NCBI GenBank assembly: GCA_034190875.2
Contig: CM067354.1
Coordinates: 50,534,119-50,598,118 of the forward strand
Length of the DNA: 64,000 bases
DNA from: Urechis unicinctus
Lineage: Eukaryota > Annelida > Polychaeta > Xenopneusta > Urechidae
Direction: 5' to 3'
Shown here in pieces: positions 386-35,226 of this stretch; the first letter of the stretch is position 1, and each line of letters opens with the position of its first letter. The position numbers were made by a program, and so were the translations under genes. Below the pieces are notes generated by a model, which had not been told where the DNA came from, ran no database searches, and saw only the letters and a program-made list of their open reading frames with translations.

Positions 386-425
386 CACAGGCCGACAGCA
401 GAATGAAGGTCAACAGAGTGTTCAT
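386..425 (-). CDS. Ly6/uPAR-family gene, exon 1 only (gene C, partial)
   Basis: This is the signal-peptide exon of a third Ly6-like gene; its other exons lie beyond the left edge. Minus-strand translation gives MNTLLTFILLSAC plus one base of the next codon. The exon ends at a consensus donor (GTGAGT on the minus strand, plus 380-385). It matches exon 1 of the two complete genes at 5551-5590 and 16800-16839. The start is the Met of this hydrophobic peptide, not an in-frame upstream Met, because a TATAAAA box on the minus strand (514-520) places the likely transcription start downstream of that upstream Met. Secretory function follows from the complete paralogues. Confidence 0.8.
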
Positions 426-426
426 G

Positions 427-1323: not shown

Positions 1324-1325
1324 TA

Positions 1326-2664: not shown

Positions 2665-2666
2665 TA

Positions 2667-5590: not shown

Positions 5591-5678
5591 GATTCCTGTA
5601 GGGATGAAGCGCTTCTTGTTGAGATGTGAAGTTGATGGTCGACAATCTTGGAATGACTTCACCCCTGGTTTACTTATG

Positions 5679-5685
5679 TTTTATA
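5679..5685 (-). promoter_or_regulatory. TATA box of Ly6 gene A
   Basis: The minus strand reads TATAAAA here, about 90 bases upstream of the gene A start codon. The same box is kept upstream of gene C (514-520) and gene B (16928-16934). An ATTGG (inverted CCAAT) lies about 40 bases further upstream. A start site about 30 bases downstream of the box would fall after the upstream in-frame Met, favouring the shorter protein. Confidence 0.6.
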
Positions 5686-6861: not shown

Positions 6862-6873
6862 GCGATTGGGTGG
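6862..6873. repeat. Target site duplication of LINE copy 1, left
   Basis: GCGATTGGGTGG occurs exactly at the left edge (6862-6873) and again at the right edge (12772-12783) of the LINE. The uninterrupted Tigger copy in unit 1 has this sequence once (near 1693-1704). This fixes the LINE ends at 6874 and 12771. Confidence 0.93.
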
Positions 6874-7141
6874 CTTTCGGAGGTGATCAGAGTGACAGAT
6901 TAGGAGACACACACGGTTCGAGGGTTCGTGAATACCGCTGCCAGTTACCCGTGAAATCCACCACTACCACTTCATTATACTTGAGTCTTTAATCTTTTAT
7001 TATTTGTTCACTGTCATATTATCGCACATTTTTCTGGCGCATATCTGGTTTTGTCTTTCTTCATATATCTTCAGTTACTTTATCCTCAGTTGTCATCCAT
7101 ATCTATTTCATTTCATTTTCATTATTTCAAATGTTTTCGGT

Positions 7142-8483
7142 ATGGAGGAACCACTCTCCATAGCAAATCTTCAATCTCATACTGACTTGCACCCCATGGC
7201 CCTTTCTCCGGCCAGATCATTCTCCTCGTGTCATTCCTCTCCTGACTTATTAGAAGATTCCTCATCACTTTCATCTGACTGTTCTTATCATGAAACCCCA
7301 GTCAAAAAAAGACGTCGGTCACCTTCTGTATCCCCAAATCAAACCATCATCCCTGAAGTTGTAAAAATAAACATCTTCTGTCCTCGAGTCAACATTGCTA
7401 AGTTCAACCCAATTGCAATCCACAGTGAAATCTCCTCCCTCATTGGTCCATCCTTCAAAAATAGCCAAAACTGGTTCGTCAATTACACTCTACGTTTCAA
7501 AAGCTCAAGCTCCCCTCATCAAGTCTATCCAAAAGCTCTGCAATCTTTCTATCAACACAAAAGTCATCTCGTCCAAAGCTAAAGAAACTAAAGGAATCAT
7601 TCATGGTGTATCAAGAGACATTTCAGACAGCCAATTACTTGATGTCCTCAAACAGTACAATGTAACAGCTATCCGCAGACTTGGCAAAGTAAATCCTACT
7701 GAGTCAATTGAACTCTCCTTCTCCACATCTCAAATGCCCTCCAAAGTTCAAATAGGATATTCATTCCATAATGTCAAAATTTACATCCCCCCTCCAATTA
7801 GATGCTTTAAGTGCAATCAGTTTGGCCACACAGTAACCTATTGCCCTAACACAACCTCTTGCCCAACTTGTGGGAAACATCATCAATTTTCAGAATGTTC
7901 TACATTAATCAAAAAGTGCTCAAATTGTGGTGAATCCCATAGTGCTGCCTTCAAAGGCTGCAAAGCATACGTCAAGGCAAAAACTATCACTGATATCAAA
8001 ACAACAAAGCAAATAACATATGCACAAGCTGTTTCTCTCGTCCCACCTTCCCCTCCTCTCCAACCCCCTGCCCATACATCTCTTCCTACTAAGCCTGCCC
8101 CCAAGGCCCAATCTCAACCTCTTGATCAACCCCATCCTCCAATCACTCCGCTTACCTCATCATCCATCTCAACCTCTGATCTTCCCAAACAAGTTTCTCC
8201 AATTACATCCCCTCCTCATCACTCTACCCCCTCTTCATCTCCCCCTTCAGCTAACATTGCTCCGACACAACAACTATCTCAACTCTCAGATTTTGTCTAC
8301 TTGTCAACAGCCATCTTATCATCTCCCCTATCTGCTGAAACTAAATCTAAAACTCTTGCCATTATTGCTTTTGAACTCCTTAAAGTCAACATTGCCTCTC
8401 ACACAATTGCTTATGCCATAAATCATCACGTTCAAGTCACCAGTCAATTACACCAAATCATCGAACATTCCTCTTCTCAGTAG
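7142..8483 (+). pseudogene. LINE ORF1 (zinc-knuckle nucleocapsid-like protein), one frameshift
   Basis: ORF1 of the LINE encodes the RNA-binding protein that packages the element's RNA. It starts MEEPLSIANLQ at 7142, followed by a Ser-rich stretch and a basic KKRRRS patch. The frame changes in a run of A near 7459-7463. The copy at 27406-27440 has one A fewer there and stays in frame, so the extra A is the mutation. Downstream, the frame opened at 7395 carries an RNA-binding region and three consecutive zinc knuckles (7803-7942: CFKCNQFGHTVTYC, CPTCGKHHQFSEC, CSNCGESHSAAFKGC). A long Pro/Ser-rich tail follows (8030-8280) and it stops at 8483. Confidence 0.85.
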
Positions 8484-8555
8484 ATCGAATACACTTCAAT
8501 CTGAATCTTTTCCCATTCACCGCTAACATTACTATTCTTACAACCCTAATTATAG

Positions 8556-11500
8556 CCTTCATGGTCAGTTCCCCCAATATTTCACAATCAAACCCAACCG
8601 TCCCTTATTTCAGACCCAGTTATCAATCATCACTTAACCATATGGTCATGGAATTGCAGAGGTATCCGCTCGCAATTAAACGAATTCTCTAATTTTCTTA
8701 TTAAAACAAATCCCAAACCTAATGTTATTTGTCTACAAGAAACATTTCTTAAGCCTAATTCTTACTTTAGCCTTCCCAATTATTTAACCATTAGAAATGA
8801 TCGTCTCTCTTCTCATCATGGAGGTCTAGCTATGCTAATCCATAAAGATATCCCCTTTTCCATTATTAATATACCATCAGTCATTGAACATCAAACCATT
8901 AAAATCAACATTGCTAATCAAACATATCACATATCCAATATTTATGACAACAATCCAACTATTGATCCCAACCAATACCATCCTATTTTTGACCTCCCTC
9001 ATTCTATAATAATGGGAGACTTCAATGCCCATCATTCCTTCTGGCACCACTCTTCCTCTAATTGCAAAGGTAACTCTCTTTTCAAAATCATTCAGGATAG
9101 CAACCTTACCCTCCATAATGATAACACTCCCACTCACTTTCATAAATATGGTACAAATATTTTAGATTTATTTCTCTCGTCTAATGATATTTCCCACAAT
9201 TTTTCTTTTCTTAATTACCTCAACACAATGGGAAGTGATCATTCTATTATCTCAATGTCTAATAACATCCCTGTTCAATCTAATATTCCTTCTCCTCAAC
9301 CAAGATGGAATATCAAAAAAGCCAACTGGCCTCTTTTCAAACAACTATGCTTAAAAAAATTAACTGCTGCCATCATTTCATCCGATCCTCTCACTTCGTA
9401 TGATAATTTTTACAAGGAAATCATTAACATTGCTCATAAATCTATTCCCTTTACATCACGCAACCAAAATCAACCTAAGGCTCACCCATGGTGGACTGAC
9501 TCCTGTTCTTCTGCCATTAAATCCAGAAACAAAGCAAGAAATAAATATTATCATCACAAAACCCCTCAAAATTATATTCAATATAAAAGAGAATCAGCCA
9601 TTGTTAAACTCACTCTAAAACAAGCAAAATCCTTCTTCTGGCACAATAAATGCTCATCTCTTAACTCTCCAAATCTTAAAGAGCTCTGGAAAACAGTAAA
9701 CAGGCTCAAAGGTAAATATTTTCAATCTCGCATCCCTCCTCTTAAACTTCAAAATGAAAACTTTTTCACTGGGAACAACCAACAAATTGCCAATCTTTTA
9801 GCTGAATATCATGCACAAATTAGCTCTGATACAAATCTTCCGTCAGATTTCAATCCAGAGTCAATTTCATATACTCAATCTAATCCTTCTAACATTAACT
9901 CCCCCCTCAATGAACCTTTAACCCTTAAAGAAATCTTATCAGCTGTAAACAAAACTAAAAAACTCCGCCCCTGGTAAAGATCTTTTAATCTACCCATTTT
10001 TCTACCACCTTCCCCACGATTCCCTTGAGGTACTCCTTCAAATATTTAATCAGTTGTGGATCTCATCAAAAACTCCTCCTATTTGGAACACCTCTATCAT
10101 TATTCCCATTCTTAAATCTGGCCAAAATCCCCACCTTTCTTCTTCATACCGTCCCATAAGTCTTACTTCTGTTGCTTCTAAAATTTTTGAATCCATCCTT
10201 AATAACAGAATCTCTTGGCACTTGCATCATAATAACCTTTTTAATCCCAAGCAATCTGCTTATCGTCCTCACCGCAGTACTATTGATAACATCCTTCTCA
10301 TCTCCGACTCCATTAACAAAGGTTTGATATCTAACAAAAAAACACATGCCATATTTCTTGACATCTCCAAAGCATTTGATATGGCAAACCGAGCCTCTAT
10401 AGAAATCAAAGCCCAACAGTTAGGTATATCAGGTTTAGCACTTAATTGGATCCACAACTTTTTATCAAACAGAAATTTTCAAGTTAAAGCTAATAATACC
10501 TTATCCAATCCTCACAGTACAGAAAATGGAGTACCTCAAGGAAGTGTTTTATCCCCTACTTTATTCAACATCTTTATAAATGATATTCCCATTCCTTCTT
10601 CTGCTTCTGTATATGCTGATGATATTACCATCTGGGCTACTGGCAAATTATCCTCTAAATTAACCAAATCCCTACAAACACGTCTAAATAGCATTGACAA
10701 ATGGGCCTCTAAATGGGGAGTCACATTTTCTCCATCAAAATCCAAAGTTGTACATTTTGGTACAAATAAAGCTCACAACACTCCCACTTTCTTCATTGAT
10801 AATAAACCCATCCCAGAACATGATTCCGTTAAATTTTTAGGTATCATTCTTGATAAAGGTCTTACCTGGAGGGAACACGTGCAGCTCACAGTAACAAAAT
10901 GTCAGAAGGTTACCAACCTCCTCAGATTCATAAGCGGCACCTCCTGGGGCGCAAACAAGGAGACATCCTGTAAAATACACGCAACCCATTCTTTGCAACA
11001 TATCCTTTATGGGGCTCCAGCCATAGTTACTGCATCTAAGACAACCCTCCTCAAATTAGAGAAAGCACAATCAGCCACGCTCCGAGCCATTACAAGAACA
11101 CATCGATCTACATCTATAAATTCCCTTCAGGTATCCACTGGTTTTCCACCCATTCCCCTCCAAATACTCAGAGCCACCCTTAGATATCAAGCTAGAGCTG
11201 TCACATACAATCTCCCCACCAAATTCATTTTTAAAGAAACCTGGTATTCTCACACTTCTAGACAGCGTAAAACTATCAGTCATTTCACCATCCCTTTCTC
11301 ACGACATCTTCCTATAATATCCTCTGAGTCTCCCTGTCATATTCCTCCTTGGCATCTTTCTAATCCTACTATCAATACCGAATTATCAGAAAAAATATCT
11401 CATGACAATCCATCATTTAACAAATCTCTAGCGCTTGATTTCATTGACAACCTACCAGCCAATTCTACCCACATTTATACAGATGGTTCCAAAAATAATA

Positions 11501-12334
11501 TCAGTACTTCCTTTGCTCTAACTATTCCGTCCATTCAATACACCAAATCTACCCGAATTCAGCCCTTCTTTTCTATCTTTACAGCTGAAGCACTGGCTAT
11601 TATCAATGCCTTAATATTAGCTCTTCAATTACATTTCATCAACCCCATAATTCTCACAGATTCCCTATCAGTCATTACAGCTTTTAAAGGTAAAATCCTT
11701 AATCCCTTCATTAAAGAAATCCAATATCTTTCCTCCTTACTTTCTTACCAAAATTCAACTGCTTCAATAATATGGATTCCAGCACATTGTGGAATCATTG
11801 GTAATGAAATTGCAGATTCGGCAGCTAAACAATCACATAATGATCCCTTTATTCAACCCATTTCTCTCGACTTAAATACTCACTATCTACTCATTAAGAA
11901 TCTTGTCGCCCAAACCTGGCAACAAGATTGGGACTCATCAAACTCTTCATATAAACTAATCAAACCTACAATAGATTTTAAACCCCAAATATTTCATCCA
12001 AATACTCTTTCCGATCGAATCCTAACTTCAATAGCTTTGAATAACCCCCCCTCTCAATTTCTATAAAGCAAAATATAATAACAACCAAAATCCCAATTGT
12101 AACTACTGCCATTCCCCTGAAAACATTTATCATTACATGTTTGTATGCCCGAAATATCATTCCCAGCGCATTCCTCTCATAAGCAAACTTAAACAAGCTA
12201 AATACTCCCTAAACATTAAAAATCTTTTCTGCTCCAATATTATCAAAAAACTACCATTACTTATATTCTCACTACCAAACGTTTTGTTATCAACAATTAA
12301 CTTATCGCTACTTCCCTCCCACATTAATTGTTGA
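8556..12334 (+). pseudogene. LINE ORF2: endonuclease, reverse transcriptase, RNase H (two frameshifts)
   Basis: ORF2 drives target-primed reverse transcription. An APE-type endonuclease starts near 8640 (WSWNCRGIR, CLQETFL, MGDFNAHHSFW, GSDHSI). The frame breaks near 9960-9970. The RT follows in the next frame, with the YADD catalytic box at about 10612-10623. RNase H motifs follow: IYTDGSK (about 11477), TAEAL (about 11581), TDSLS, and WIPAHCGIIGNEIADSAAK (about 11774-11830). A second shift lies in a C run near 12045-12052, after which a Cys/His cluster (CNYCHSPENIYHYMFVC) and a short tail run to a stop at 12332-12334. No good ATG opens the first frame: a stop lies at 8553-8555. All catalytic motifs survive, so the copy is young but not functional. 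Confidence 0.88.
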
Positions 12335-12771
12335 TCCATCAAATTGGTATCTTTCATCCTCTTCCAATCATCTCTGCACTTAGTTTTCTTCTATCCCTCC
12401 TGAGTTTTTTCCTATTAAGGTACCCCCATGCACATCCAACATGGGATCTTTAGGGCTCCTTTTATTTCTTACTTTAATGCACTGGAGTAGCCCCCAGTGT
12501 GTGAAATCTTCTTATATGCATTTTCTTACACCCTTGTAATGTGCACTTCATTCATTGTTTTCTCTTCCTATCATTTAAATTAATGAAAAACCAAGAGGCC
12601 CATTTAAAGCTCCAAACTTCTCTGCTCTTACATCATAAAAATAACCCTTCAATATGTTCAACTATCTTATTTGTCCTGTGTTAACCAGAATCATTTGACC
12701 GCCTTTCGCTGTACATGGCCAAAAGAAGCCGAACAGCGTTAAATTTTGAATCAACAACAACAACAACAACA
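12335..12771 (+). other. LINE 3' UTR and CAA-repeat tail
   Basis: Noncoding 3' end of LINE copy 1. Part of it (12380-12590) recurs in inverse orientation at 45330-45520, confirming that it belongs to the LINE. It ends in about six CAA repeats at 12753-12770, just before the target duplication. Confidence 0.8.
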
Positions 12772-12783
12772 GCGATTGGGTGG

Positions 12784-13674
12784 TATCTTCGACACGTCTT
12801 TCCATTGACACGTTTTAGGCGTGGCGCAGACTGTAATACACAACGTAATCTTCGTCGTAGCCTTGCTCTTGAGCGAATCATCTCAAATAATCCACGACCA
12901 TATGTCTTCGTTATGCGCGGGCTTTCGTCGTCGTCAGAGTCGTCGTTGGTGTGGGCAGCACGTTTTTGACTGACTTGCTCAAAGAGAGTGGCATCGTCGT
13001 ATTCGCCGCATGTTGGAACGGTGTCATCGAGTGACACGAGTCGATCGAATTCCTCTCTTGGCATGGCTGGCGTCAAAGATACGTCGTACAGGTCACCGTC
13101 GATATCGTCAAGGGCGGGTTGGTCGGTTCAAGTGAAGCCGGCTTTACGGTAGCAGTTTGTGATGGTCACAGCCTCTACCCTAGCAGACAAATAGCAGGGC
13201 TTGTACGGATTCGTCAGCGTCGAGGGCGTTTATGAATCGTCCATTCAACGCGCTGCGGTAATGTCCTTTCCAGTTACGTATCACTCCTCGGTCCATCGGC
13301 TGTATCAGACTGGTGGTGTTGGGCGGCAGGAAGTGTAAAATGATGTTGGTCCACGTCACATTCGGCGAGTGGATTGAACAGTTTTCGAAAACCAGGCAGA
13401 CTTTCCGTTGGTTGAAGCAGAGCTTTTGGTCCCATTAAGTCAGCCAGTTTGTGAAGATCTCTCCCGTCATCCATACGTTTTTCGAAGAAGCGTATTCGAC
13501 CGGCATTATTGTGAAATCTTTCGGAAAACATAACGGGCGATGACGAGCTGTGGCAGCTTCTCCGATCCGCAGGCTGACTGTGTCCCTTGTCAGTAAAGGC
13601 CCAGAGAAGTAAAGGGCCGTCCCTTCTGTGTTGAATATGTCCTGGTCACGAAAGACGGCGGCAATTTCAGGCAA
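12784..13674 (-). pseudogene. Tigger/pogo transposase fragment, copy 2
   Basis: Same broken DDE remnant as in copy 1. The FTNWL-type block is at 13435-13674, the LPPNTTSLIQPMDRG block around 13260-13330, and the acidic tail at 12784-13076. The tail continues into LINE-derived sequence only by accident of the insertion. No intact transposase is possible. Confidence 0.75.
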
Positions 13675-14358
13675 TTAGCCTTGGAGCCAGTGTCGGACGA
13701 ACAGGTTATCGGCGTCTTGGTCCCGTTTAACGAAGTTGCACTGTACTAAGATACATATAGGGTCTAAGGTATATGGTACCAAGTGAGATAGGGCAGGGTA
13801 ATATGGGGCTAAGTTATATCAGTCATAGTCTTGTGTAATGATGTAAGGCGAAACTATGTACTTCTTAGTTATAGATGGCGAATTGGTATAGCGTTTACTA
13901 ATGTAGGGCGAACTTATAAAGGGGCGAACTTACAAAGGGCTTAGTTATAAATGACAAAGTTGTGTAGTGATAAGCTGTAATCGAGGGAGCTATATAGGCA
14001 AAGTATTAAGCAATATATGAGTGTACTAAATCAGTTATGACTAGATTCATTGTAACTGAAATTAGGGCGTGGCCACATTGTGAATAATAATAACATCTTA
14101 TTATTTGACTTCACTCATCATCTTCAGTCTGCTTTGATTCAGTGTAAAACTCATTCAGCTAAGTTGAAGCTGTCGCTTTCTAAACGAAGTCATTTTTGTC
14201 TCAGATATAAATGAAGCGCCGTCTGTAGTTGGTTTTAGTCAACATGCTAAATTAACATAAGCTGTCGTCGTCTGGATATGGGTGATGGTTTCACTGAAGG
14301 TGCATCTGAAGTCTGCCAGACTAATGGGTCGCCGTGTCCTGGACCAGAGCAAGCGGCA

Positions 14359-14741
14359 GTCCGTTTTGGCATAAATGAATAAGTACCATCCGCATTTCCA
14401 AGCCCATAGTAAAAACGATGTTAAGTGGGTCAAAGGCATCAATGGAAGGATGCCTTGGCGCTATACAGCTCTACTCCAATGAGCGAATTTGCTGACGCCC
14501 CTAGCGAACATAGGGAAAACCAGTTGGCGCGTCATCAGCCCTTTTTGTGGGTTAAACTTGTCAGTATGATTTTACACGGATAAGGATTGAGAACGAATTT
14601 TATCATATTGAATTTATTTTAGAGGTGATGGTCTAGGGCAAATTCAAAATGAGCTGATTCCATCGAGTTGTGAGCTGGTTTATATACGCCCCTAGCGCCA
14701 AATGTTTTCTCACCTTGTTCTTACCTTATTCATATGGCGCA
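14359..14741. other. 383-bp segment present in unit 2 but not in unit 1
   Basis: Both units read AAGCGGCA and then ACATCTCACC, but unit 2 has 383 bases between these. The segment contains a direct repeat of CGCCCCTAGCG (near 14497 and 14686) and no coding region. It ends GGCGCA while its left flank ends GCGGCA, so deletion from unit 1 by short homology is as likely as insertion into unit 2. Confidence 0.75.
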
Positions 14742-15298
14742 ACATCTCACCAATGGAAGCCACTTGTGAAAGCGCGCTATTACGGATGGCAGAGGACAAG
14801 ACTTCCGTTTTTGGTTCCAATTTTATTAAAGTAAGTCGCTATTTTTGGCTAAAAATGCGGGTCCAAGATTTGAGCGCAAGTTATTTATATTCGCGAGTCA
14901 AAGCGAAGTGAGTTATCGGGGAAGAGCTGTATATGAAATTTGTTTTTAAAGTAACACTTCTGCAGAGGATGAATTTGGGTGTCTAGAAAATTTGACACCT
15001 GGACCTGACAATACCAAGCGACCAATCAAAGAAGCCAAAGAATTGAAGAGCTCTGACAATTTTATTTCAAGATCATTCAATAAATAGATATTTCTATATA
15101 CAGCTGCATATATGTCCGAGTATAAATACAAGGAATATATAGGATAACAAAACAAGGGCATTGCATAACATTTCCCGCGGCGACTAATATCACAAGAAAT
15201 ATACAATGTTCATTTCCTGATTTTTATCACAGATCAAATGCAAACATCCAATCGTTGGATGTCTGACATCAATGTTCCTGTCCTGAATGTCAGAGCTC

Positions 15299-16839
15299 CT
15301 AAAGCACATTCTTTACCAAGGCGACGATTGTAGGTACGCAGAGAGCAGTCAGACTTAAGACGAGGCTGGAGCCTCCATTGCAATAGTCCTCTTGGCAACA
15401 GGTGTCTTTGGAAGAAATGCCGAACAAGCTGAAGGAGGATTCAGTACATGTGGTCTCGCAAGAACGAGAAACTGTGTACACACCAGCTGCACCAGCTCGG
15501 TTTTTCTGTCAACGTAGAAAAAGGAAAATGTGATTGTACTAAGTGAAACTTGGGATTGAATCTTAGAAATAGCCACGATGCAAAAGGAAATTGTGATTGT
15601 ACAAAATGAAGCATTGTTTTAGATTAATGCCTTCAAAAGCGAAGAAATAACGACCTCATTACGATTGCAATCAGTCTACTCGTGAAGTGATTGGGCTACT
15701 AAGTAACGACGTCACAAACCCGTCACACCCCTCATTAAGCCCGCGGAGAGGTGTGAAAAACACCGGGATGGCTCTAACAGCTTTGCAGGATACTGACAAA
15801 TTACAAAAGGTATTTGTACTTTGAAAATACATCGTTCATCAATCGCGAATATGTTGGTGCTTAAGTCATTCTCTAAATCACAATGTGAATTTAATACTTT
15901 TTTCTATTCCATGTCACCGAGACATGACCGAGATTTTAAAGAGGTGCATAAGGGCCAAGGACGACAGTCATCGGCGATGTGACGTCATAATGAGTAGCCC
16001 TATGGTCAGCTTTGCAGTAGAAACAAGCTCTCAGCATCATGAAAGCCTTCAATCGACTGGAATCTTAACTACTGGAGTCAACAGATCAAATAATAACTTG
16101 ATAGGACAAAGTTCCCCGAAGGTGCTAGGAAACTTACCTTGCAGTAGGTGCAGCCTGTAGAGTTTCCCTGATCGGACTCGTCGAAAGTATCGGAGCACAG
16201 CAGGCAAGTGTAGCAAGTGAGGGAATAAGCGGTGGCCACTGAAACATTTATGCTTTGATTATTTCGGATATTTCTAAATCGATTGACTGATATGATCGGA
16301 CAACTTGTATGTCCCATATGTCAATTCACCTCTATTTATGAAGCCTTTGCTATATCACTAAAGCGTTTATCGCTATGCTAAAAGGGCTTGCGCCACCATC
16401 CGAGGATGTATGCGAACACACCACCAATGAGCAGCTTTGATATAGAGTCTCTTAAAATATTATGAAATTTCTGATTTATTAGGGTCGTAGTCGCGACGAC
16501 CAATCAAAAAACTATATATCTTCAACATAAGAGGGCACACGCCGAACCCCGAGACGTTGGATCAACATTCCCATGTGCTTTTGTTGATTTTAGGGTTGCG
16601 CTACCTGACGACGGTAATGTGTTTTACTCATTTGCATATTTGCATATTTACTGAATAGGGATTTACTATTCGATATATAGCAAACAAGTGACCAATTTAT
16701 TTCCATTTTCATATTGAACGCTACTGTGAGTGTGTCTTTCAAAAACTATTACAATTATCTTAATTAAATAATTAACCAATAAAACATCGAGTGACTCACC
16801 ACAGGCCGACAGCAGAATGAAGGTCAACAGAGTGTTCAT
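15299..16839 (-). CDS. Ly6/uPAR-domain GPI-anchored protein (gene B), 3 exons
   Basis: This is the tandem paralogue of gene A with the same structure: exon 1 at 16800-16839, exon 2 at 16138-16238, exon 3 at 15299-15505, with the same donors, acceptors and phases. The predicted 115-residue protein differs from gene A at only two places by my reading, both in the region just after CCQEDYCN (Ala92 to Gly, Val95 to Leu), where the anchor would be attached. All ten cysteines, the sequon at Asn39 and the hydrophobic tail are kept. Intron 1 is shorter (561 versus 760 bases). A likely polyadenylation signal is at 15061-15066 (minus). The expected role is a secreted, membrane-tethered Ly6 protein; the partner is unknown. 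Confidence 0.88.
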
Positions 16840-17169
16840 GGTTCCTGTAGGGACGAAGCGCTTCTTGTTGAGATGTGAAGTTGATGGTCGACAATCTTGG
16901 AATGACTTCACCCCTGGTTTACTTCTGTTTTATACATATCCATCGACATGCGGTTACTAAGGGTGCTCAGCCAATCACTAGTAAGCAGCACCTACCACTC
17001 GACATTAAGAAAGCTGATTTAAAGATTACTTGGCACCCAACGATCAGGCCCTTCCTTAATGCGGCTGCCGAGTAACAGCAATCTGATGAATGAGGAAAGG
17101 TGTGAATACAGTTATCACACTCTGCAAGGTGTGATATTCTCGTCATCTGCCAAATTAATTGCAATAGAT
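16571..17169. repeat. Segmental duplication, unit 3 (truncated)
   Basis: This matches the beginning of units 1 and 2, including exon 1 and promoter of the Ly6 gene. Similarity stops at about 17169, inside the sequence equivalent to 743-746. The DNA that follows is related to LINE copy 2. Confidence 0.75.
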
Positions 17170-18031
17170 AATTCGAACGAAAAAACAAACAGGTTTGCGT
17201 CGACAAGATGGATCCATACGGCAGTGTTAGAATGTGACACTGAGTGATTTAAGTATTGAGTCATTAAAGCAGAGCATTGTATAGAACCCGCGCACCTACG
17301 GTAGCTGTCAGCGGGATCGACTCGACGAAGCTCGAAGTACTAACACGTATTCGATATCTGCTTAGATTTTTCGCGCTTTGTCGGTGTTTCTCTTTTGTTG
17401 ATTCAGTTTTTCTTGGTTTATTAGTTTTTGCTTAAGTTGAGGCGCAACTATTCGGTGATTATCCTTGCTTGTTATATTATATAAGGACAAATACAGTTTT
17501 TGTTTATTCCGTCATAGTCGCCATTGACTGGGCGGCCACCCTCTTTCGGCCTGCTTTAGCCAAGGTGTTAATTTCAGAGATTAAGCCGTTCTGTCAGCTT
17601 CGTTCAACACCGCTGCCAGCTACCCGTGAAAGCTACTACAACTACTTCATTATACTTCAGTCTTTAATCTTTTATTATTTGTTCACTGTCATATTATCGC
17701 ACATTTTTCTAGCGCATATCTGGTTTTTGTTTTCTTCATTTTTCTTTAGTTACTTTATCCTCAGTTGTCATCCTTATCCATTTCATCTCATTTCATTATT
17801 TCAAATGATTTCGGAATGGAGGAAGCACTCTCCATAGCAAATCTTCAATCTCACACTGACTTACACCCCATGACCCTTTCTCCGGCTAGATCATTCTCCT
17901 CGTGTCATTCTTCTCTTGACTTATTTGAAGATTCCTCATCACATTCATCTGTCAGCTCATATCATGAAACCCCAGTCAAAAAAGACGTCGGTCACCTTCC
18001 GTATCCCCAAAACAAACCATCTTCCCTGAAG
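17170..18031 (+). mobile_element. LINE copy 2, 5' part (5' UTR and start of ORF1)
   Basis: From about 17598 this matches the 5' UTR and ORF1 start of LINE copy 1 (6930-7352). ORF1 starts at 17816 with MEEALSIANLQ. One A is missing near 17980 relative to copy 1, which shifts the frame after the PVKK stretch. Upstream, 17534-17597 is loosely alignable with the very 5' end of copy 1. The region 17170-17533 may be extra 5' UTR, but I cannot prove it. The LINE is cut at 18031 by the KDZ transposon and resumes at 27318. Confidence 0.75.
18025..18031. repeat. Target site duplication of the KDZ element, left
   Basis: CCTGAAG at 18025-18031 is repeated at 27318-27324, on either side of the inverted-repeat element. 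The uninterrupted LINE at 7351-7357 has it once, within the same ORF1 sentence (CATCCCTGAAGTTG). This gives a 7-bp duplication. Confidence 0.9.
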
Positions 18032-18164
18032 CACCCGATACAACTTGGGGTCGGCGTATACTATAGGATACTGGGAGTCGCCGGTCATGCGTATGCCATA
18101 GGATGACAGTAGCGCCCTCTGGCTACTGGAAGACACCCCCGTCAGCCTATTGATACGATGGCAG
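18032..18164 (+). repeat. Left terminal inverted repeat of the KDZ element
   Basis: About 133 bp, reverse-complementary to 27201-27317. The outermost bases are CACCCGATACAACT. An insertion of about 13 bases near 18082 makes this arm longer than its partner. Confidence 0.88.
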
Positions 18165-18879
18165 CTCCCGAATCAAGTGGTGCACATCAGCTGCATTTAC
18201 CTCTCGAGACGGAGAATTCTTTGTTTTATGAATATATCGCTCAGTTTCATAATGAATATAAGTGAACAACCTTGGTTATTATAGTACAAGACCACCTATT
18301 GAGAGTTGACTCAAAGACAAAATTAGCTACAAGGAGTGGGGATGCGAAAAGGCAAGGCAAACCAACCTGCGACGTATTGGAAATGTCGGGTGAAAACCCC
18401 ATTCTTAAGATAGACATAATGAACCAATGACGAAAGAATTAGGTGTCATGGGGCAAAAAATTATAGAACTGCATCCTGGTTGCTTAGAGATGCAGCGAAA
18501 ACGCCACCTTGTCTATGGAATGGGACTAGAGCATGAATTAAAACTCATTTTGAAGTAGAAAATGGCGGACTCTATTCACTCGCAGTGTATGAAGTAATAT
18601 TGTGTCAGTAACGTCAGAAGGTGAAACTTGCTCGTTCGGATTACAGAAACGCCTACTATTGGCTACTGGAAGACGCTTCTGTCAGCGTATCGAAACGATG
18701 ACGTGTTGTTACTCTTGTCATTAGTCCATCACTTTCCTTCAGCGAATAAACGTCCATAGGTATGTCAATCGGAAGAAGAAAATGGCAGACTCTATTCACA
18801 TACATACAGTTGTGTCAATAAGTAAGTACTTGTATACAGAAACGCCTATATATATATGATATATATATCCATATATAAC

Positions 18880-18881
<2 letters not shown>

Positions 18882-18969
<88 letters not shown>
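18882..18969. repeat. (AT)n microsatellite, 88 bp
   Basis: Uninterrupted AT dinucleotide run of about 44 units with looser TA-rich sequence before it. Apparent open frames across it are low-complexity artefacts. Confidence 0.95.
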
Positions 18970-18972
<3 letters not shown>

Positions 18973-19455
18973 TACGTTTTTGGAAATGTTAATGATGCTT
19001 GTTTGATTTGCCAACTGCTGGATCTGTCATATTTGGTCTTCCAAAATTGTCGTCCCACCAAAATACTGGGTAAAAGTGAATGGTAATCGGATGCGCCATA
19101 CAGATTAGTGTGTTGACTCTGGTGGTTTTAATTCATGCGCAAGACGTTAATACGTGACATGTGATGCGGTGCACGCGGGACTACGTGACATATGATACAC
19201 GTTGAAATATGATGCGCGGACCGTTAAGACTTTGCCCATGTGGAAAGGTCCGACTCAATACTCTATCGCATTTGTTGTGCCCAGAAAGGTATACTCTATC
19301 GCATTTGTGTATATATAGATATATCGTGTGTCGATGGTGCCTTTAAATATTGCACATCTGTGCATTCATGCAATTGGCTAGGTGCATATGTTGGAAGATT
19401 GACAAGCATACTCAAAGACTGACAATTTTCTTTAATATATATTACATAACACAGG

Positions 19456-19509
19456 CACTCGAGTTCAGACATCATGGAGCTAATAAATCATGATGTCCGA
19501 ACTCAAGTG
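19456..19509. repeat. Hairpin-forming inverted repeat, 21-base arms
   Basis: Arms at 19456-19476 and 19489-19509 pair at 19 of 21 positions around a 12-base loop. The position is about 170 bases downstream of the transposase stop codon, within the KDZ element. Confidence 0.75.
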
Positions 19510-19675
19510 ACTGTGATACATAACCAATTGTTATCTGATGTTGAATGCTGGTGTAAATGGGTTGTCTGCTTGGTTTGATAAATCTAAGAAGTGGATACAA
19601 ACAAATTGGTTCAATACAGGCAGAATTTTATTTACATAACAGACCACAAGCTAAATATCTGCACAAATAAACTTA

Positions 19676-22600
19676 TTAAATTTCATCGTCACTGGAAATT
19701 TCCTCATTATCTGGAAATGCCTCAATATTGACAACAATCGCAGAAAGTCCATCCATTTCTATATCATTAATACTGAAAAGATTATAGACAAAATGCTCTA
19801 AATTTGAGCACCCTCTGTCTGTGGATGTTTTGATCATTATTTCTTCAGCGTGAAATTGGTTCCTCGTTTCCTTAAGATTTCTTGAAACCACTGACAAAGT
19901 TCCTTTATCAATGCTAGTTTGGTCAGTTTGCTGTTTTATGGCATCAATGGTATTTGCCAGCTGTTTCACCCTTGTCACTGTTGCCTTGTGCAGGCATGCC
20001 ATGTCTCAGTTCACCAAGTCTATTTCCTCAATACCACTTTCATGTAGTCTGTGATTGTTAATAAGCTTGCACTTCATGGGGAGTGGCACATCAGAGGAAA
20101 CAGAATTGAGTGGTGAAAGGTGCTGCTACACATCTGCATCAAGCGTTGTAACATCAGAGCGTTGTAGAACCATGTGTTGGGATACTATTGTAGCTGTTGA
20201 TAACCTTGTTCAGTTTCTTGCTTGTGAGCAGAATTTGGCGTGTAATACACTTTGCCACTGACTGGCCCCTGTTGACACAACATTGTAATTACTCATCAGC
20301 ATTTCATAATAATCCCATTCTGACCTAGGCTGACGGACATAAATATTTAGTTTATTGGAAAAACGACATAAAAATAAGGTGACTTCAAAACTCACTTGCA
20401 TACGTTGACTTAACTGTAACAAAATAGTTGTACAGTACCACTGCATCTCTCAACTCTTCCATATGCAAGAGGTTAGGGGCCTTTTCTTTTCTTTTCTGCC
20501 TCTCTATTTTTTTCAGAGAGGCATCTAGTCTGCACACAAAGTGATGAATGACAAAATTTAGTATCAATGACTGGTAGAAAAAAAGTTATCTCCATATCTA
20601 GTCATATACATTGTTTAATTTGAATAAAGAAAGAAACAAAGGGCCTTGAAGATCTGCTACTGTTGACAAGATTTTAAATAACAAGTTATGTCAAGATTGA
20701 ATTTTGAAGAAGTTAATGGTATAACATTATATTCAATGAGACACCAGGGAAAAACACTAACCACAAAAACCATTTGCCGGGTCAGGCAAGTGTCCTTGCT
20801 TGCTGTATTACAAAAGGTGACATCAAACTTTCAATAACGCCTTTCAAAGGTCATGAAGGGCTAATGTAAAGTTTAGGAGTGACAATTCTTTTTCCACAGC
20901 AAAGATATATGTTATGGTATACTAGCAATTATAACAATATCTAACCATCTATTATAATTATGTATGTAACTATTAAATTACCTGGCTGCTCTTCAGTATC
21001 CTCTGTGTTTAATGCATCATCAATTTCACCAACACTGCAGCCAGAATAAGTAGATAAAAACATTAATATCACTCCAATAACAGGATTGGTCATCCTTCTC
21101 CTGGCAGGAGTATTACAGATACATCGCAGCACCATTTGTGTATTTGATAAAAATCCACATTATCCAAAGACCCAACACATTGTGAGAATAGAGTTTACCT
21201 CAATGAATGGTACAGTTACAACATCAATGCATATGTGCATTCCCAAGGACACACAAAGAAAAGGATTAAATAAATTGTGAGGTTCCACATTTGGCAGAAA
21301 TCTACGACAATTAATTAAATCAAACTGCACATTTGTGTCAGAACAGCCTTTTATCATTATGGCTCTGCACCACGTCGTTCCCTTCTGAACACCAGTCATG
21401 TACTTGACCTATGGTTGCTCCTGTTTGAAGCCATTTTGATAACATTGTGTGGGCTTACCATATAACTTCAACTTTCACAATATTCACAACTGCAATTACA
21501 TGATTCAATAAAATTTGTAGATGACATTGGTTAGATGAAGCAATGCTTATTAACTATATTCACAGCATGTATGGCACCCCAACAACAAGGATACATTACA
21601 AGTTACTAAACTAATTACAGCCTTGGAATACCAATGACAATACCTTGTAATAAAGCAAGATACTCCTCCATTTCCTTTGATGTACTATCTCTGATAAGCA
21701 ATGACAATCTCTCATTCAAGGTATGGCCTTCAAAACCATTTAAGTAATCAATTTATTAAAAAATAATATAATTTGAGTAGTAGAAAGCGAAAAGGAAAGG
21801 TACAGGTAGTTATACTTGCATATTTTAGAAGTAATTTTCTGTCCATAGTTCAGGAGTGATTCCACAATAGGGTCTGACCTATTTTCTGGGGTATTTTCTT
21901 TTGTGATCTTGCTGAATTTGCCCAAATAGATCCAGCATCTCTCTGTTCCTTCACCATCAAAAAGCCCAGCGCCTTGGGCTATACTGGATTTACGATTTAA
22001 AACTATCTGATGTTTCAGCATGACCTTTGCTGGTAGCAATGGAATTATTAATAAGGATATTTTAATATATATATATCATATCACACATTATCACACAAGT
22101 ATATTAATCAATATGATATTCCTGTAACTTTAATTTACATTCTTACCTTACATGACATGTTGTGACCATACACATTGAATATTGGTATGGCAAATGTCAC
22201 TCCAGCACTTATGACTTTTTTGCTACATATGCAGGCCAAAAATACTGTTTGTCTAAAATTGGCAACAACTTTCAGCATTAGGTTGCATAGTACAAAAAAA
22301 ATGTGTTCGGTTACCTTGACAACAGTGCTTAGTAAACAGCCCAAATCATACAATAGGATGTCCACATTCTCCAAGTTTTTCATCATTAAAATACTGTATG
22401 CCATGCTGTTAAGAACTGAAACAGGGTTAACAGTATGTTAAAGATGTCCAGGTGGGTAGAATCTAAAATATCAAACCAACAACAACCAAAGCCACAACAA
22501 CAATACTGTTCACATGCTTCTTCATTAACTATAGCATCACAGAAAGCCCATTCTCCAAAGTCATTCACAATGGTGTGATGTTTCTCCTATGATACAAAAT

Positions 22601-25600
22601 TATATATCATAATGGGGAAATCATCATGTATGGTCTCAAATGTAAGTTATATGTACCAGTTGAAATTCAACTGAAAATTGTTAGATCTGCATTTTTATAA
22701 ACTTCTCCACAAGCTCAGTTATAAATCATAAAGGTCTAGTCCTGCTACATGCCACCGTATATGGTCATATAATGAAAGTTTGGCATCAAAAGCCCATGTA
22801 TATGTGATTGCTGTTTTTGTTCCTGCATGAAACAAGAAATTGACACATGACATGACTAACTCATGATGTAATAGATGGACAAATTGTAGCTTAGTTTGAT
22901 TACACCAAAATATTGACATTATGACACATATGTGTCTACCTGTGGCAAATAAGTTACTTGATTAAGGGTGTCTGGATGTACAATTATTACATTCTACAAA
23001 CCATATTAAAACTATACAAAAAGAGTTGATCTTACCGCTCCCCATGTTCCATGTAAAAAATCTTGCAAGGGAAGTCACAGTAACAAACAGATGTAAATGC
23101 TCCAGTAATGTCCAGCTTAGCCGTCTTGTTTTTGGCACGGAGAACGGACCCAGCTTGAAAATTGCTACAGTTCTACAATAGCAATATGAGGATAAGGTAA
23201 TCATAAAGATGGTCAATGCAGATCTACATCAAAATATTACATCACTAAAGTAACCAATCAATTCAGCTGACTTGTCTATACATACATCAGTTAATGACAC
23301 AACAAATGTTAATATTCACCATATTTGACAGTATTTGATATATATATTCCACACCCACCCGGTCCACAGGGTTGGCTATGTCACTTTGGTGTCCGACAAA
23401 CTGGTCTATCTCATTCTGAGACAGGAAGAAACAGCCTTCATGTATAGGGGCTCTGACGCTATGTCCCGTTTTTGACGGCCAACTCAATCAGATTTCGTTA
23501 AAAAAGTAGATTATTTTATGTGCATAGTGGTTATTATCATTGGTAAGGCAATGGTATTAATTGGTAATCTCTTTGCATTCAAGAGTCTACTGAGGGCAAA
23601 CAGGGCACTGAGATCCATCTGGGAATCCTTGCCCAGTGAACAGCAAGGTGCCAAAATTATGCACAACCCAACAAAAGTTCAAGATTCTGAGCTGATGCTT
23701 CTGTGCAAATATTGATATTTGGTTTGCATTTTCAATTATCACAGTTATTGAAAGAAGCAAACCCAAGCATTATTCAAAGAATCAGTTGTCACATGTTTAC
23801 CAATTCCTGATCTGCACTCTTGCATGCCAGTGAAGAAGTCATAGATGCTTATCTGTCCTTCCAACAGCATGGCTCTCAGTGTACGCTTGAAATCAAGAGA
23901 AAATGCCACTATTGGACTAGATGGCGTTGACACCCAATGTCCATATTCCAGTAAAATGACTGGTAATTGCTCACAGTGGCACACATTCAATCCCTGTCTT
24001 TTTGCTGTGGCCAGCCATTGCCATAAGTTATTGGGTTGCCATTTCATAAATTGAGATGCTACAATATTCAATCACAAAATACAAGCTAATTAACACAGCC
24101 TAGTTGAGTACAGTTTAACAATATTTATGTTAGGGTTTCAAGACTGTGAGTCTCACACAACACTGAGTTTTGTAGGCTGAATGAGCAGATTAATACGCAT
24201 TACAAAACAATACACCTGACCATCTCTACTTATTTCAATTTGGGGCCAATTGTAATAGGCTACAAAGTGCAAGGTAAACACTCCTGTGCTATTCAATGTT
24301 TAAAAGAACAAACCTCAGGATTCCATTTTTCCAACTTAAGCATGACTCATGAGTATTGTTCTGTGGTAACTCATCGGTTACTCATGCAATTGGCTTCATC
24401 TGGGTCCAGGGCTGTGTCAGATATGTCATGGTCCATACCTATACAGAAGCAAAATAAATTCTCAACAACTTGGTAGACATGGGTTGACAATAGATTATAT
24501 CAGATACATACCAAAGCATGCTATCAGTTTTTTGAAGTGACTATTTGTTACACACAATTTTTAGTGTCATAGGCCGGTGCCAGACCTACTGCACACCACG
24601 GAAGAGTGGCCAATTGCAAACCCGTCTCGTTGTGACAGGGCCGTTCTGGAATGTTTGGTAGTCTCACATAAATGACCATTGGCATCAAATGCAATGAAAC
24701 ATTTTGTATACTACAAATGAAGAATAGTGTTTTCGCTCAATACCATTTTGTTATCCTTGGGGATTTCGATATATGTACCTAAGAAAGAATTGTCACACTG
24801 CTTTATTCTTCATTCAATTGACATCTTAATTACACCAATATGTGGAAGAATGAAAGTGATAAGCAGATCCAAGTGATAATTGATCAAAACTGGATAACCC
24901 TCTGAAACAAGCATTTTTGTCAAATATCACTAGCATCCATATCAAGGAGACTCTACTTAACATATTGGTATGATAATCTCTAATGGTACAGTCAATTTAA
25001 AGACACTATGTACCCAGCTTACTTTCCCTGTGAAATCTTTTAACACCAAAGCTACGGCTCCTTGGTAATGGTCCAAGTCCTAGGGGCTCAGGGCGATTTC
25101 ATATTCAACTATGTCAAATGGAAGCAAGACTGAGTATTTGTGTATTAGGAAGTTTGGCAATATGGAATTAAACTGATACACAAGTCAATTGAACTGTTGT
25201 AGTCAATTGCATGATTCACAGATATTTGGTTAGCTCCGGTCATAACGGTAACATGAATTTATACCTCTACTCGGACGTCTTGTAGGGCTAATATTTGGTG
25301 TGTGAGTGAAACTGTTAACATGTCATCCCATTGAACCTTTCAACCCTGAAGTGATTATTGGAACATCCCAATGAACTTGGTGACCTGCATCGTTTGGAAA
25401 CTCTTCTCTTCTCTCCATCCCGTTTCGCTTGAGAAATACGGCAGACTCAAATTGTCATGAAACTCAAAATGCGACAAAGCGGGTATTATTCGAGGGATAT
25501 TCTCACTTGGGTAAACGTAAGGAAACTATCTGGGGAATAGGCAAGGCACTTGTCCCTGGTGTTTTGATTATCTGATGCCACCTACAGGTTACAGCGCGTA

Positions 25601-26059
25601 TGCAGGTATGTGAGAGATCGAAAGTAGTAAACAGGGTAAATCAGTAAATAGCGCGGACGCTGTCAGCTGGTCAGAAGCGAAGCGTCTTTGCCTATCTGGG
25701 GAATAGAACGTTTATCTTTCTACATGGCAGAGTCCGTTGAAAACGATTCCCTGAGAAAGACAATAATATAAGTTTGAATTTTGCTATACCGTCATTGGGT
25801 CCTGGGGCTGTGTGAGACTTGTCACTGCTGACACTTGACTTTTCGTTATCATGATCGTGGCTGGGCCTAGCTCCGGTCGAATGGTAACATGAATTTAGTC
25901 TACTCAGATGTCTTGTAGGGCTGGCCCTGGAGCTCCCATGTCGCGGTTAAGCACTGGTGTTTCAACTGGATACCACACACATCTTCCGCTCTCATAAATG
26001 TACACACCGTCTGGCTCGAGGTTAAGGTTGGCTTGCCGCTTACGTCTCTTAGATGCCAT
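19676..26059 (-). CDS. KDZ (Kyakuja-Dileera-Zisupton) family transposase, multi-exon
   Basis: This gene encodes the enzyme that would move the surrounding element. Exons, in reading order: a possible first exon from 26059 (MASKRRKRQA, basic); 24058-23801, with CHCEQL then YGHWVSTPSSPIVAFSLDF, the KDZ cysteine-cluster region; about 23720-23580, with CPVCP; 23172-23036, with AGSVLRA then KLDITGAF and MEHGER, the first catalytic Asp block; 22415-22315, with LLYDLGC; 22252-22147, with AIPIFNVYGHNMSC; 22024-21816, with GAGLFDGEGTERCWIYLGKF, the block holding the catalytic Glu; then exons near 21730-21645 and 20567-20400, and a last exon to 19676 with an acidic end. Most junctions have GT and AG signals. 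One exon pair (22315/22252) does not join in phase with the sites I chose. Boundaries are approximate. Confidence 0.82.
24480..25900. other. KDZ element, long intron or spacer with an internal duplication
   Basis: No conserved protein segment is seen. The stretch 25230-25295 (TTAGCTCCGGTCATAACGG onward to CTTGTAGGGCT) is an imperfect copy of 25866-25920, which overlaps the end of the proposed first exon, so part of the gene start has been duplicated inside the element. Confidence 0.5.
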
Positions 26060-27200
26060 GATCTACCACCTGAATCAAAAAGGCTAATTCGAGCCGAAAA
26101 GTTCAAGAAAAGTTGTTGTGAACATGTTCCTTTCATAGCGCATGCGCAGCGCGGTACAATTGGGAGCATGCATTAATTTTTTATTTTTAGGGTCATCGAA
26201 GTTATCGCGCCCATAAGCAAATAAAAGGGTGACAATTTTTTTCATGGTTTGTTGAATAATAGTTCTTCTGAGGGTTCTATGGGTGGTGGCCTCGTTTAAG
26301 TTCTTAGGAAGTGTTAACATTTTCCAAGGATCACTGACTGAGCTCATCAGAAGACAATTAACATGTCGAGAGCAGAGTCTTCAATCTTCGTAAAATTTCG
26401 AAATCATGAGAAATGTAAAATCATAAATTACTGATAGTTTAACTTGCAAGATGTAAAAAAACACCATAGATTGGCTAGATTGGCGCTTGCATTGTCCTTG
26501 TGGATATTTGGCATGGCTGTAATCTTTCATCGTGTTCGTGCATCCCCTCAGTGTCTCAGTGAGCATCCAGTTTTGTTTCACATATTTCAAGACAAGATGG
26601 CATTAATTTCATACATATAAACCTCTTCTGTCTCTTTTGAAACGTATTTAGATATTTGCTGAAGCGTATAGTACCACTCGTGCTCTATGTGATTCGATAT
26701 ATCTTGATTAATCAGTCGATCATGCCTATTAAAAGGAGATTTTGAATGAATAATAGGATTTGTTAAGTTCAATATTCACAGATTAACTCATCCGTTATAC
26801 TGTCTGCCAATCGACTCTCATACGGGGTTATCGTTTCATATATCATTCCCAATGAGAGTAGATTAACTTATTGAATAATATTCTATATCCTTATTTTGTT
26901 TCATATCTTAAGCATTTATTATCCGTATATATGTGGGAAATAGAAATCGCATTAATGTACATGATTTTACGCCTACTTTTATAAGAATTTTGTATACATG
27001 ATGAAAATTACTGGATTGTTTGTCCATACCAGAGAGGTTTATCGTTTCCGTTCATGTCATCAGAAAAGTGATTCCTAGTACGCGACCGCTGTTTTTCTGT
27101 TGACGTTCTTATACTTAACGATGACATCCATCATTTCGTTAAACAAATGGACAATAATTAAATTGACATCTGGTTCGCCCGAGCCATTTACTCACTAAAT
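26060..27200. other. KDZ element, 5' noncoding part
   Basis: This lies between the first recognised transposase Met and the right TIR. It should hold the transposase promoter and perhaps further 5' exons. Short open frames on the minus strand (26084-26347, 26381-26590, 26587-26772) match nothing I recognise. Confidence 0.45.
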
Positions 27201-27317
27201 CTGTCATCGTATCAATAAGCTGACGGGGGTGTCTTCCAGTAGCCAGAGGGCGCTACTGTCATCCTATGGCGACTCCCAGTATCCTATTGTATACGCTGAC
27301 CCCAGTTGTATCGGGTG
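27201..27317 (-). repeat. Right terminal inverted repeat of the KDZ element
   Basis: About 117 bp, the partner of 18032-18164. Read on the minus strand it starts CACCCGATACAACT and ends near ATACGATGACAG. It is followed outside by the second CCTGAAG and the continuation of LINE ORF1. Confidence 0.88.
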
Positions 27318-27773
27318 CCTGAAGTTGTCAAAATAAACGTCTTTTGTCCCCGAGTCAACATTGCTAAGTTCAACCCAATCGCAATCCACAATGAAATCTC
27401 CTCCCTCGTTGGGCCATCCTTCAAAATAGCCAAAACCGGTTCTTCAATTACACTCTACGTTTCAGAGGTCAAGAACTCCTCCTCAAGTCTATCCAAAAGC
27501 TCTGCAATCTTTCTATCAACACAAAAGTCATCTCGTCCAAAGCTAAAGAAGCTAAAGTTATCATCCTTGGTGTATCAAGAGATATTTCAGACAGTCAATT
27601 ACTTGATGTCCTCAAACATTACAACGTTACAGCTATCGGTAGACTAAGCAAAGTAAATCCTGCTGAGTCAATTGAACTCTCCTTCTACACATCTCAAATG
27701 CCGTCCAAAGTTTAAATAGGATGTTCATTCCACAATGTCAAAATTTACATCCCCCCTCCAATTAGATGCTTTA
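27318..27773 (+). mobile_element. LINE copy 2, continuation (ORF1 middle), truncated
   Basis: This continues LINE ORF1 after the KDZ insertion and matches 7351-7812. It includes the A run where copy 1 has a frameshift; here the frame is kept. Other small lesions are present, including an in-frame TAA near 27713. Similarity ends abruptly at about 27773, just at the first zinc knuckle (AGATGCTTTAA); no ORF2 follows. Confidence 0.85.
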
Positions 27774-28253
27774 AAGTGTCTATCGCACGGTTATAGGTAC
27801 TTCGCTGAAATCAATTCATTATGTGATCAATAAACTCAAACCGGTCCAATAACCGTCGCATCTGATCAGTTAAGGCCAAAATTTGATAAAATAGCAGTTC
27901 AAATTAGCGCGCCCGACAAAACGTTGCGGCATCCATTATCTAGGTCAACCATGCGTGTCACGTCAGGTAAGGTAGGCCTGTTCTCACGATCTCCTTGCGC
28001 ATCGGCTTCTGCGCATGCTAGGATTCGCCTCTGCACCACACAGATCGCTTTGGGGCATATTCGGGCCATTACGCGAGAAATATTGATACGAATTATCAAC
28101 TCTTAAATGTTACAAAAAATAGTTTCTACTGTGTTCGATTAGAAGAATAACATACATTTTGTTATGGAAAACTTTTCAGTAGGTCCAAAATGAGGCATTT
28201 ATCGAAAAAAAATAGTTCCGCGGACGTTTCATGGCCGTCAAGCGTTTCTAAAA
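27774..28253. other. Unassigned noncoding sequence after the LINE break
   Basis: I see no gene or known repeat. The abrupt LINE end at 27773 suggests either an insertion or a deletion junction here; I could not find matching inverted ends or a target duplication. Confidence 0.4.
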
Positions 28254-34010: not shown

Positions 34011-34122
34011 ACAGACGGCCACCTTCTGCGTAGGCGCTCGTGCTTAAAAGACAGGATAATAACGGCGGGCCCAATATAGTACGGATATCGATGTTTTCCC
34101 TATTATTCTTATTCGGAGAGAG

Positions 34123-35226
34123 ATGAATACACAACTATCGAGCTTGGCGCTTAACTGCTCAGTGGGGCCAGATATTCTAACCGGAACTCAACCATCAGAT
34201 GTTGTCATCACCGAAGCGCGCACACAACAGAGCCCTCTTGTCATGTTTGTGGTTTCATTCATAAGTTTAGGCATCGTCGGCAGCAATGTGATCAATTTGG
34301 TAATTTTGTCAAAGATTCGCCAGATGGCGTGGGCTACCCGCGCCTTCCTTATCAATCTCAGTATCTCAGACCTCGGTGTGGGATTAGTGGCCTGTGCACC
34401 AGCCGTCTATGCCACTGCCGTAGGATACTGGCCTTATGGCGACACCTGGTGTCAGATCTCTGGTATCATGCATGGTACATCTGTGACTATATCCATCTGG
34501 AGTATATCCATGGTAGGTGTTGAGCGATATATAGCGACGACTAAACCATTCAAATACCACCACTACACGTCGAGGAAGCGCTGCTGTCTCGTCCTCGTCG
34601 TCATGTGGCTGATAGCCATCATGACCTTCATGGCTCCCAACTTTACAAAGTCGAATTTCATATATTACAAATACAATACAGCACAGCATATATGTGGCTT
34701 ACATTGGGAATTCCCTGCTTACTGTATCATCACGGCGCTTTACATTCCTCTGTTGGCCGGGTCAGTTCTAATTTTTACAAGTTATCACATTCACAAATCA
34801 CTGAATGTGCATAATGTACGGACTTATGGTAACGCGTTATCAAGTGTTGGCCTCATCCAGACACCCCGGCCTCGTGACACTAGGATAAGCTTGAGCAGAA
34901 GAACTCTTCACGTTCTTGTTGCCACATCTGTGGGCTATTTCACGTGCTGGGGACCTTACGTCACAATGGTAGTCATCATGGCAGCAAGCCAAAGCAGCTC
35001 CAAAATGATCAATCCGTCTCCATACATTCAATTCTCTGTCATGTGGCTGGCTAACTTCAACAGTATGCTCAACGTGTTTATATATTCGAGCACCAACTCA
35101 CATTTCAGACATGTGGCCAAACGTATATTGATGGGACGTTCTGTCCGACATTGTCTCTTATGTCAAAATACAGCTGGCGCAGACGAATCCGTGGATCACT
35201 ATGAGAGACAATGGTTCCCAAACTGA
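34123..35226 (+). CDS. Class A (rhodopsin-like) G protein-coupled receptor, intronless
   Basis: A predicted 367-residue seven-pass membrane receptor in one exon. It has a sequon at Asn11 in the N-terminus. TM1 has GSNVINLVIL (Asn55); TM2 has LSISDL (Asp83). Cys110 and Cys191 form the likely extracellular disulfide. TM3 ends in ERY (134-136) in place of DRY; Trp162 is in TM4 and Pro209 in TM5. CWGP (275-278) is in TM6, and NVFIY (317-321) in TM7 replaces NPxxY. Position 3.32 is His117, so the amine-binding Asp is missing. The TM7 lysine of opsins is also missing (Asn311). The ligand is therefore unknown. Cys344 and Cys347 may be palmitoylated. The C-tail appears shortened by a frameshift. Broken paralogues lie in the same region. 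Confidence 0.92.
   Translation: MNTQLSSLALNCSVGPDILTGTQPSDVVITEARTQQSPLVMFVVSFISLGIVGSNVINLVILSKIRQMAWATRAFLINLSISDLGVGLVACAPAVYATAVGYWPYGDTWCQISGIMHGTSVTISIWSISMVGVERYIATTKPFKYHHYTSRKRCCLVLVVMWLIAIMTFMAPNFTKSNFIYYKYNTAQHICGLHWEFPAYCIITALYIPLLAGSVLIFTSYHIHKSLNVHNVRTYGNALSSVGLIQTPRPRDTRISLSRRTLHVLVATSVGYFTCWGPYVTMVVIMAASQSSSKMINPSPYIQFSVMWLANFNSMLNVFIYSSTNSHFRHVAKRILMGRSVRHCLLCQNTAGADESVDHYERQWFPN

Follow-up and report, generated by a model that had tools for sequence, protein, structure and literature searches.

A gene-bearing KDZ-superfamily DNA transposon with 7-bp target-site duplications in the genome of Urechis unicinctus

Can a KDZ-superfamily DNA transposon that interrupts a long interspersed nuclear element (LINE) in the genome of Urechis unicinctus still move by itself, and to which branch of the superfamily does its family belong? 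The locus is located in a 64,000-nt stretch of assembly GCA_034190875.2 (CM067354.1, positions 50,534,119–50,598,118 of the forward strand; contig C13 of the 1.19-Gb assembly), which is referred to here as the window. A preliminary description of the window presented the transposon as a possibly recent copy with a readable spliced transposase. We conclude that the element is very probably a gene-bearing but non-autonomous member of a KDZ-superfamily transposon family.

The transposon spans window positions 18032–27317 (9,286 bp) and has inverted ends with the outermost bases CACCC...GGGTG. The left terminal inverted repeat (TIR; 18032–18164, plus strand, 133 bp) starts with CACCCGATACAACT and contains one extra T relative to the end found 71 times in the genome. 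The right TIR (27201–27317, minus strand) is 117 bp long, and its alignment to the left TIR contains 4 substitutions in 117 columns, one 1-nt indel, and one 15-nt gap. Two pairs of inverted arms are formed by positions 18095–18164 and 27201–27270 (70 nt, 97% complementary) and by positions 18046–18082 and 27268–27304 (37 nt, 95% complementary). The element is bordered by the target-site duplication (TSD) CCTGAAG at 18025–18031 and 27318–27324.

The same seven bases are present once, at 7352–7358 on the plus strand, inside LINE copy 1 (6925 to about 12767), which codes for an endonuclease, a reverse transcriptase (E = 5e-41), and RNase H, and has a tail of CAA repeats. When the flanks of the element are joined with a single CCTGAAG, 814 of 892 columns (91%) are identical to window positions 6925–7813. 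The interrupted LINE copy 2 is composed of a portion preceding the insertion (17599–18031, plus strand, 91% identical to 6925–7358) and a portion following it (27318–27778, plus strand, 91.6% identical to 7352–7813), and its match to LINE copy 1 is limited to about 890 bp at the start. The uninterrupted site belongs to a sister copy of the repeat and is not an allelic empty site, which leaves the inference of a 7-bp duplication unchanged. The preliminary description had placed the element, its TIRs, and its TSD correctly to the base, and had rightly identified LINE copy 1 as the uninterrupted site.

The 7-bp duplication is replicated in other members of the family. The assembly contains 71 exact occurrences of the 20-mer of the end and none of the reversed, non-complemented control. 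Thirteen pairs of adjacent ends, plus followed by minus within 100 kb, were selected from the list of 20-mers. The window element, the left end of which escapes the 20-mer because of the extra T, was added as the fourteenth pair. The 7-bp flanks are identical in eight of the 14 pairs, and a ninth pair, on C16, has a 7-bp duplication with one mismatch. Exact identity of 6 or 8 bp was found in none of the 14 pairs, and swapping of the partners produced no 7-bp identity in 182 combinations. Two of the matches call for caution: the one on C13 falls within a CATA repeat, and that on C8 represents one insertion read from both copies of a duplicated locus. No TSD was detected at two pairs on C4 (2,651 bp and 25,443 bp) or at the pairs on C7, C10:39524489, and C15; pairs lacking an exact TSD may consist of mispaired or rearranged ends. 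All 22 distinct ends printed begin with CACCCGATAC, which is partly due to selection, since the rows were picked by their match from the first base of the TIR. The search of the same genome for further copies, which had been proposed as a check on the assigned ends, therefore supports them.

The C8 pair was also considered as a composite transposon. The ends at C8:11366121 and C8:11461777, 95.7 kb apart, share the 7-bp flank GCAAAGG, and between them are two copies in the same direction, each of which has lost one end. The region comprises loci L002, L007, L009, L014, and L055–L062. However, 1333 bp of the left flank of the first copy are present again near the second (99.4% identity), and the sequence to the right of the second copy is also found next to the first (1098 bp at 99.8% and 170 bp at 100%). 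The composite transposon was therefore rejected, because the repeated flanks indicate a single insertion within a locus that was duplicated or is present as unmerged haplotypes, and not macrotransposition. Groups of three ends with identical outside flanks were observed about 4 kb apart at C9:43102505, 43106456, and 43110520, and 6–12 kb apart at C3:2228040, 2234114, and 2245704. Both triplets are local tandem duplications of a flank together with a transposon end.

The gene carried by the element encodes a KDZ transposase. Single minus-strand open reading frames (ORFs) matched the Pfam KDZ domain (PF18758) with E-values of 6e-5 and 0.01, neither of which reaches the curated cut-off, and the CxC1 domain (PF18802) was matched by positions 23745–24071 with an E-value of 5e-7 (30.2 bits, cut-off 26.9). 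The profile search on spliced exons that the preliminary description had called for was positive: a hand-spliced draft, in which pieces of the window copy are mixed with pieces of other copies, matched KDZ with an E-value of 2e-24, while CxC1 was slightly under its cut-off in the draft. A search with the catalytic part of the draft retrieved 18 proteins at E ≤ 10, the weakest at 1e-23. Ten of them are from bivalves, all 18 contain PF18758, and the top relative is the Pecten maximus protein P0001 (45% identity). A second search, with six of the relatives as queries, extended the set to 108 proteins, which represent numerous animal phyla and also some fungi. The family was placed among animal proteins by a rough tree computed without support values and without labelled reference transposases.

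The matches of P0001 to the window are colinear and proceed exon by exon along the minus strand, which also carries the motifs KLDITG, YDLGC, YGHNMSC, and GLFDGEGTER noticed in the preliminary description. A candidate first exon (MASKRRKRQ..., 25905–26058), the placement of which is uncertain, is followed by the remnant of an upstream cysteine-cluster exon (24290–24460), the CxC1-domain part (23755–23990), and an exon containing GHSVRAPIHEG (23358–23487). The KDZ domain is distributed over exons with the motifs KLDITG...HGE (23037–23172, 52% identical to P0001, E = 2e-10), YDLGC (22300–22422), YGHNMSC (22146–22215), and GLFDGEGTER (21833–21973, 66% identical to P0001, E = 2e-15). The C-terminal reading frame, which ends with EISSDDEI, is located at 19679–20005. 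The candidate first exon is split in the window copy by extra sequence: a stretch of about 43 bp is present twice, at 25244–25289 and within the exon at 25880–25922, and may be a copy-specific duplication. In another copy, L015, the candidate first exon contains a foreign segment of about 1.5 kb that includes open frames, at roughly 0.9–2.5 kb of the locus.

Four acidic residues are conserved in the aligned relatives: D225 (numbering of P0001) is present in 54 of 54, and D343, E398, and E401 are present in 53, with one gap. In a predicted structure of P0001 (pLDDT 88), D225 lies on β-strand 219–227, D343 directly follows strand 337–342, and E398 and E401 are at the start of helix 399–414. The model suggests that these residues occupy the acidic positions of a DDE core and are the probable catalytic residues. 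The counterpart of D343 is in the YDLGC exon of the window copy, and those of E398 and E401 are in the GLFDGEGTER exon. The sister copies L015, L020, and L022 retain the counterparts of all four.

The window copy does not. Relative to L010, L015, L020, and L022, it lacks 40 bp of the GHSVRAPIHEG exon, including the codon for the counterpart of D225. A second deletion, of about 350 bp, removes the upstream cysteine cluster. This deletion is common to the window copy, L015, L020, and L022, and is overlapped by a deletion in L014, so that among the six copies with sequence in this region only L010 keeps the cluster. An 11-bp deletion just upstream of GLFDGEGTER breaks the reading frame in the window copy, L009, L014, L016, L021, and L026, and a TGA stop codon precedes the C-terminal frame in eight of the nine aligned copies with sequence there. 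No intact transposase gene was found among the copies read; L010 also contains stops. The window copy is therefore a dead member of the family and, contrary to the preliminary description, does not yield a complete spliced transposase. The suggestion of a recent copy with few stops did not hold either, since three deletions and a stop break the gene, and alignment of the window copy with nine others gives identities of 93.6–94.5% for eight of them and 88% for the ninth. The ratio of nonsynonymous to synonymous substitution rates (dN/dS) between the window copy and eight other copies is 0.49–0.88, as expected of copies that have mostly decayed after leaving the active lineage.

The 40-bp deletion is the only defect of the window copy that is not common to copies inserted elsewhere, and this sharing of defects favors movement in trans. 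Copies L015, L020, and L022 are 99.3–99.9% identical to each other. L015 and L020 are located on different contigs, have their own exact TSDs, and agree at 99.3% of 7,196 aligned sites; since both carry the 350-bp deletion, they support mobilization in trans. L022, at 99.86% identity to L015, lies next to a different outside flank, and its pair of ends is without a TSD. Judging from these sequence comparisons, broken copies probably moved with the enzyme supplied by another copy.

The element contains a subterminal repeat with a unit of about 220 bp, slightly more than one unit of which is present in the window copy (18552–18804, plus strand). Forty-one base pairs of the unit resemble TIR positions 89–129 (83% identity). 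Of the 28 fetched loci that measure 2.8 kb or more, with adjoining stretches of one place taken separately, 12 contain repeat units 110 bp or longer, in numbers from 1 to 25 per locus. One array consists of 23.8 tandem copies. The arrays in other copies account for part of the length range of the family. Arrays inside DNA transposons reportedly feed satellites in the case of Tetris (PMC4079207).

The closest known counterparts of the family are animal genes in which CxC1 or CxC2 and KDZ follow each other as they do here, from Pecten maximus (P0001), Mytilus (P0002), Branchiostoma (P0011), and Patiria (P0014), which are 45, 48, 42, and 40% identical to the catalytic region of the draft, respectively. 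The sources consulted give them no names beyond uncharacterised or KDZ-associated protein, in this analysis neither termini nor TSDs came to light for them, and the window gene differs from them in being broken. The fungal elements Kyakuja-1_LB and Kyakuja-2_LB from Laccaria have 7-bp TSDs, 5'-CA..TG-3' termini, no TIRs, and a TET/JBP gene (PMC12730594). The window family shares the TSD length and the CA..TG termini, but it has TIRs of 133 and 117 bp and is therefore not filed as Kyakuja. No TET/JBP gene was found in the five element ORFs scanned. The Cryptococcus elements KDZ1–KDZ3, which were shown to be mobile, are about 9–11 kb long, have TIRs of 241, 139, and 169 bp, respectively, and contain CxC1 and KDZ domains (PMC12810828). 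The window element resembles them in length, long TIRs, and domain content, whereas their TSDs are 8 bp (KDZ1) or 4–8 bp (KDZ2 and KDZ3) (PMC12810828). Nematode elements are described as having TIRs, with no TSD found (PMC9297572).

It is unlikely, though the best of the alternatives, that the family belongs to the Zisupton branch proper and has a TSD of unusual length. Zisupton, first described from fish (PMC9297572), is the only well characterised KDZ group (PMC12730594). The fish elements share the KDZ superfamily and the presence of TIRs with the window family (PMC12730594, PMC12062965), and related animal elements have been filed as Zisupton (PMC9297572). However, the Zisupton TSD is 8 bp long (PMC12730594), in agreement with the preliminary description, and this length is absent from the 14 pairs of ends, which also separates the family from Dileera, with the 8-bp TSD of Zisupton-1_PGr. 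Zisupton of platyfish additionally contains a CxC7 domain at residues 1333–1393 (PMC12062965). CxC7 was found neither in the window ORF at 19676–20005 (E ≤ 1; the C-terminus is degenerate) nor in the four animal relatives (E ≤ 0.01), which match CxC1 or CxC2 instead.

The TIRs could belong to an unrelated element in which the KDZ gene is an older, nested insertion. The ends of the family do bound short derivatives, one of 2,119 bp with a TSD and one of 233 bp, which is outside the 14 pairs and has GTTAGAC on both sides and a left end short of three bases. Nevertheless, several long copies combine the same ends with this KDZ gene in one common arrangement, and the Cryptococcus elements show that lengths of 9–11 kb and TIRs of 139–241 bp are known for transposons with CxC1 and KDZ (PMC12810828), so that nesting is very improbable. 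Most improbable is an autonomous, recently inserted copy with an intact transposase, for which the readable motifs and the few internal stops in the KDZ exons might speak, but which is opposed by the frameshift, the TGA, and the dN/dS values, and ruled out by the 350-bp and 40-bp deletions unless the assembly is wrong.

For the non-autonomous, gene-bearing copy that we favor, a mechanism of movement can be proposed. An intact transposase from another copy would excise the element by the DDE chemistry of its RNase H-like core, and the CxC cluster of the enzyme would probably aid DNA binding. Insertion into the LINE would proceed by a cut with a 7-nt stagger, and the repair of the gaps would leave CCTGAAG on both sides.

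The surroundings of the element contain other repeats and a gene. Window positions 1–17169 are formed by a repeat with a period of about 5.1 kb, in which positions 10–1704 recur at 5113–6873 and positions 1690–5204 recur, with an insert, at 12768–16658. The repeat is interrupted by LINE copy 1, on both sides of which CGATTGGGTGG is present, and two of its minus-strand frames were scanned and gave no Pfam match. Reversed fragments on the minus strand at 45136–47061 are 77–82% identical to the 3' part of LINE copy 1. An intronless frame of 387 amino acids on the plus strand at 34063–35223 contains a rhodopsin-type G-protein-coupled receptor domain (Pfam 7tm_1, E = 4e-34).

The window family is a member of a known but poorly known superfamily, and the general picture of cut-and-paste transposition is unchanged by it. 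The useful finding is that the 7-bp duplication of an animal KDZ family is replicated at separate insertions. In the accessible parts of the literature surveyed, which did not include Repbase and the two founding papers, the TSD length is given for only one animal KDZ group, Zisupton, with 8 bp. The branch with CxC1 or CxC2 was seen in molluscs, lancelets, echinoderms, cnidarians, and others. We tentatively speculate that this branch may generally make cuts staggered by 7 nt and may be an animal, TIR-bearing counterpart of the fungal Kyakuja and not a part of Zisupton, and that in this genome its broken copies may have spread in trans while TIR-like sites multiplied in the subterminal 220-bp arrays, which may serve as extra transposase-binding sites. 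With its defined ends, replicated 7-bp TSD, and near-identical copies, the family provides a concrete test case for the cleavage geometry of KDZ transposases and is useful for the classification of the animal KDZ branch.
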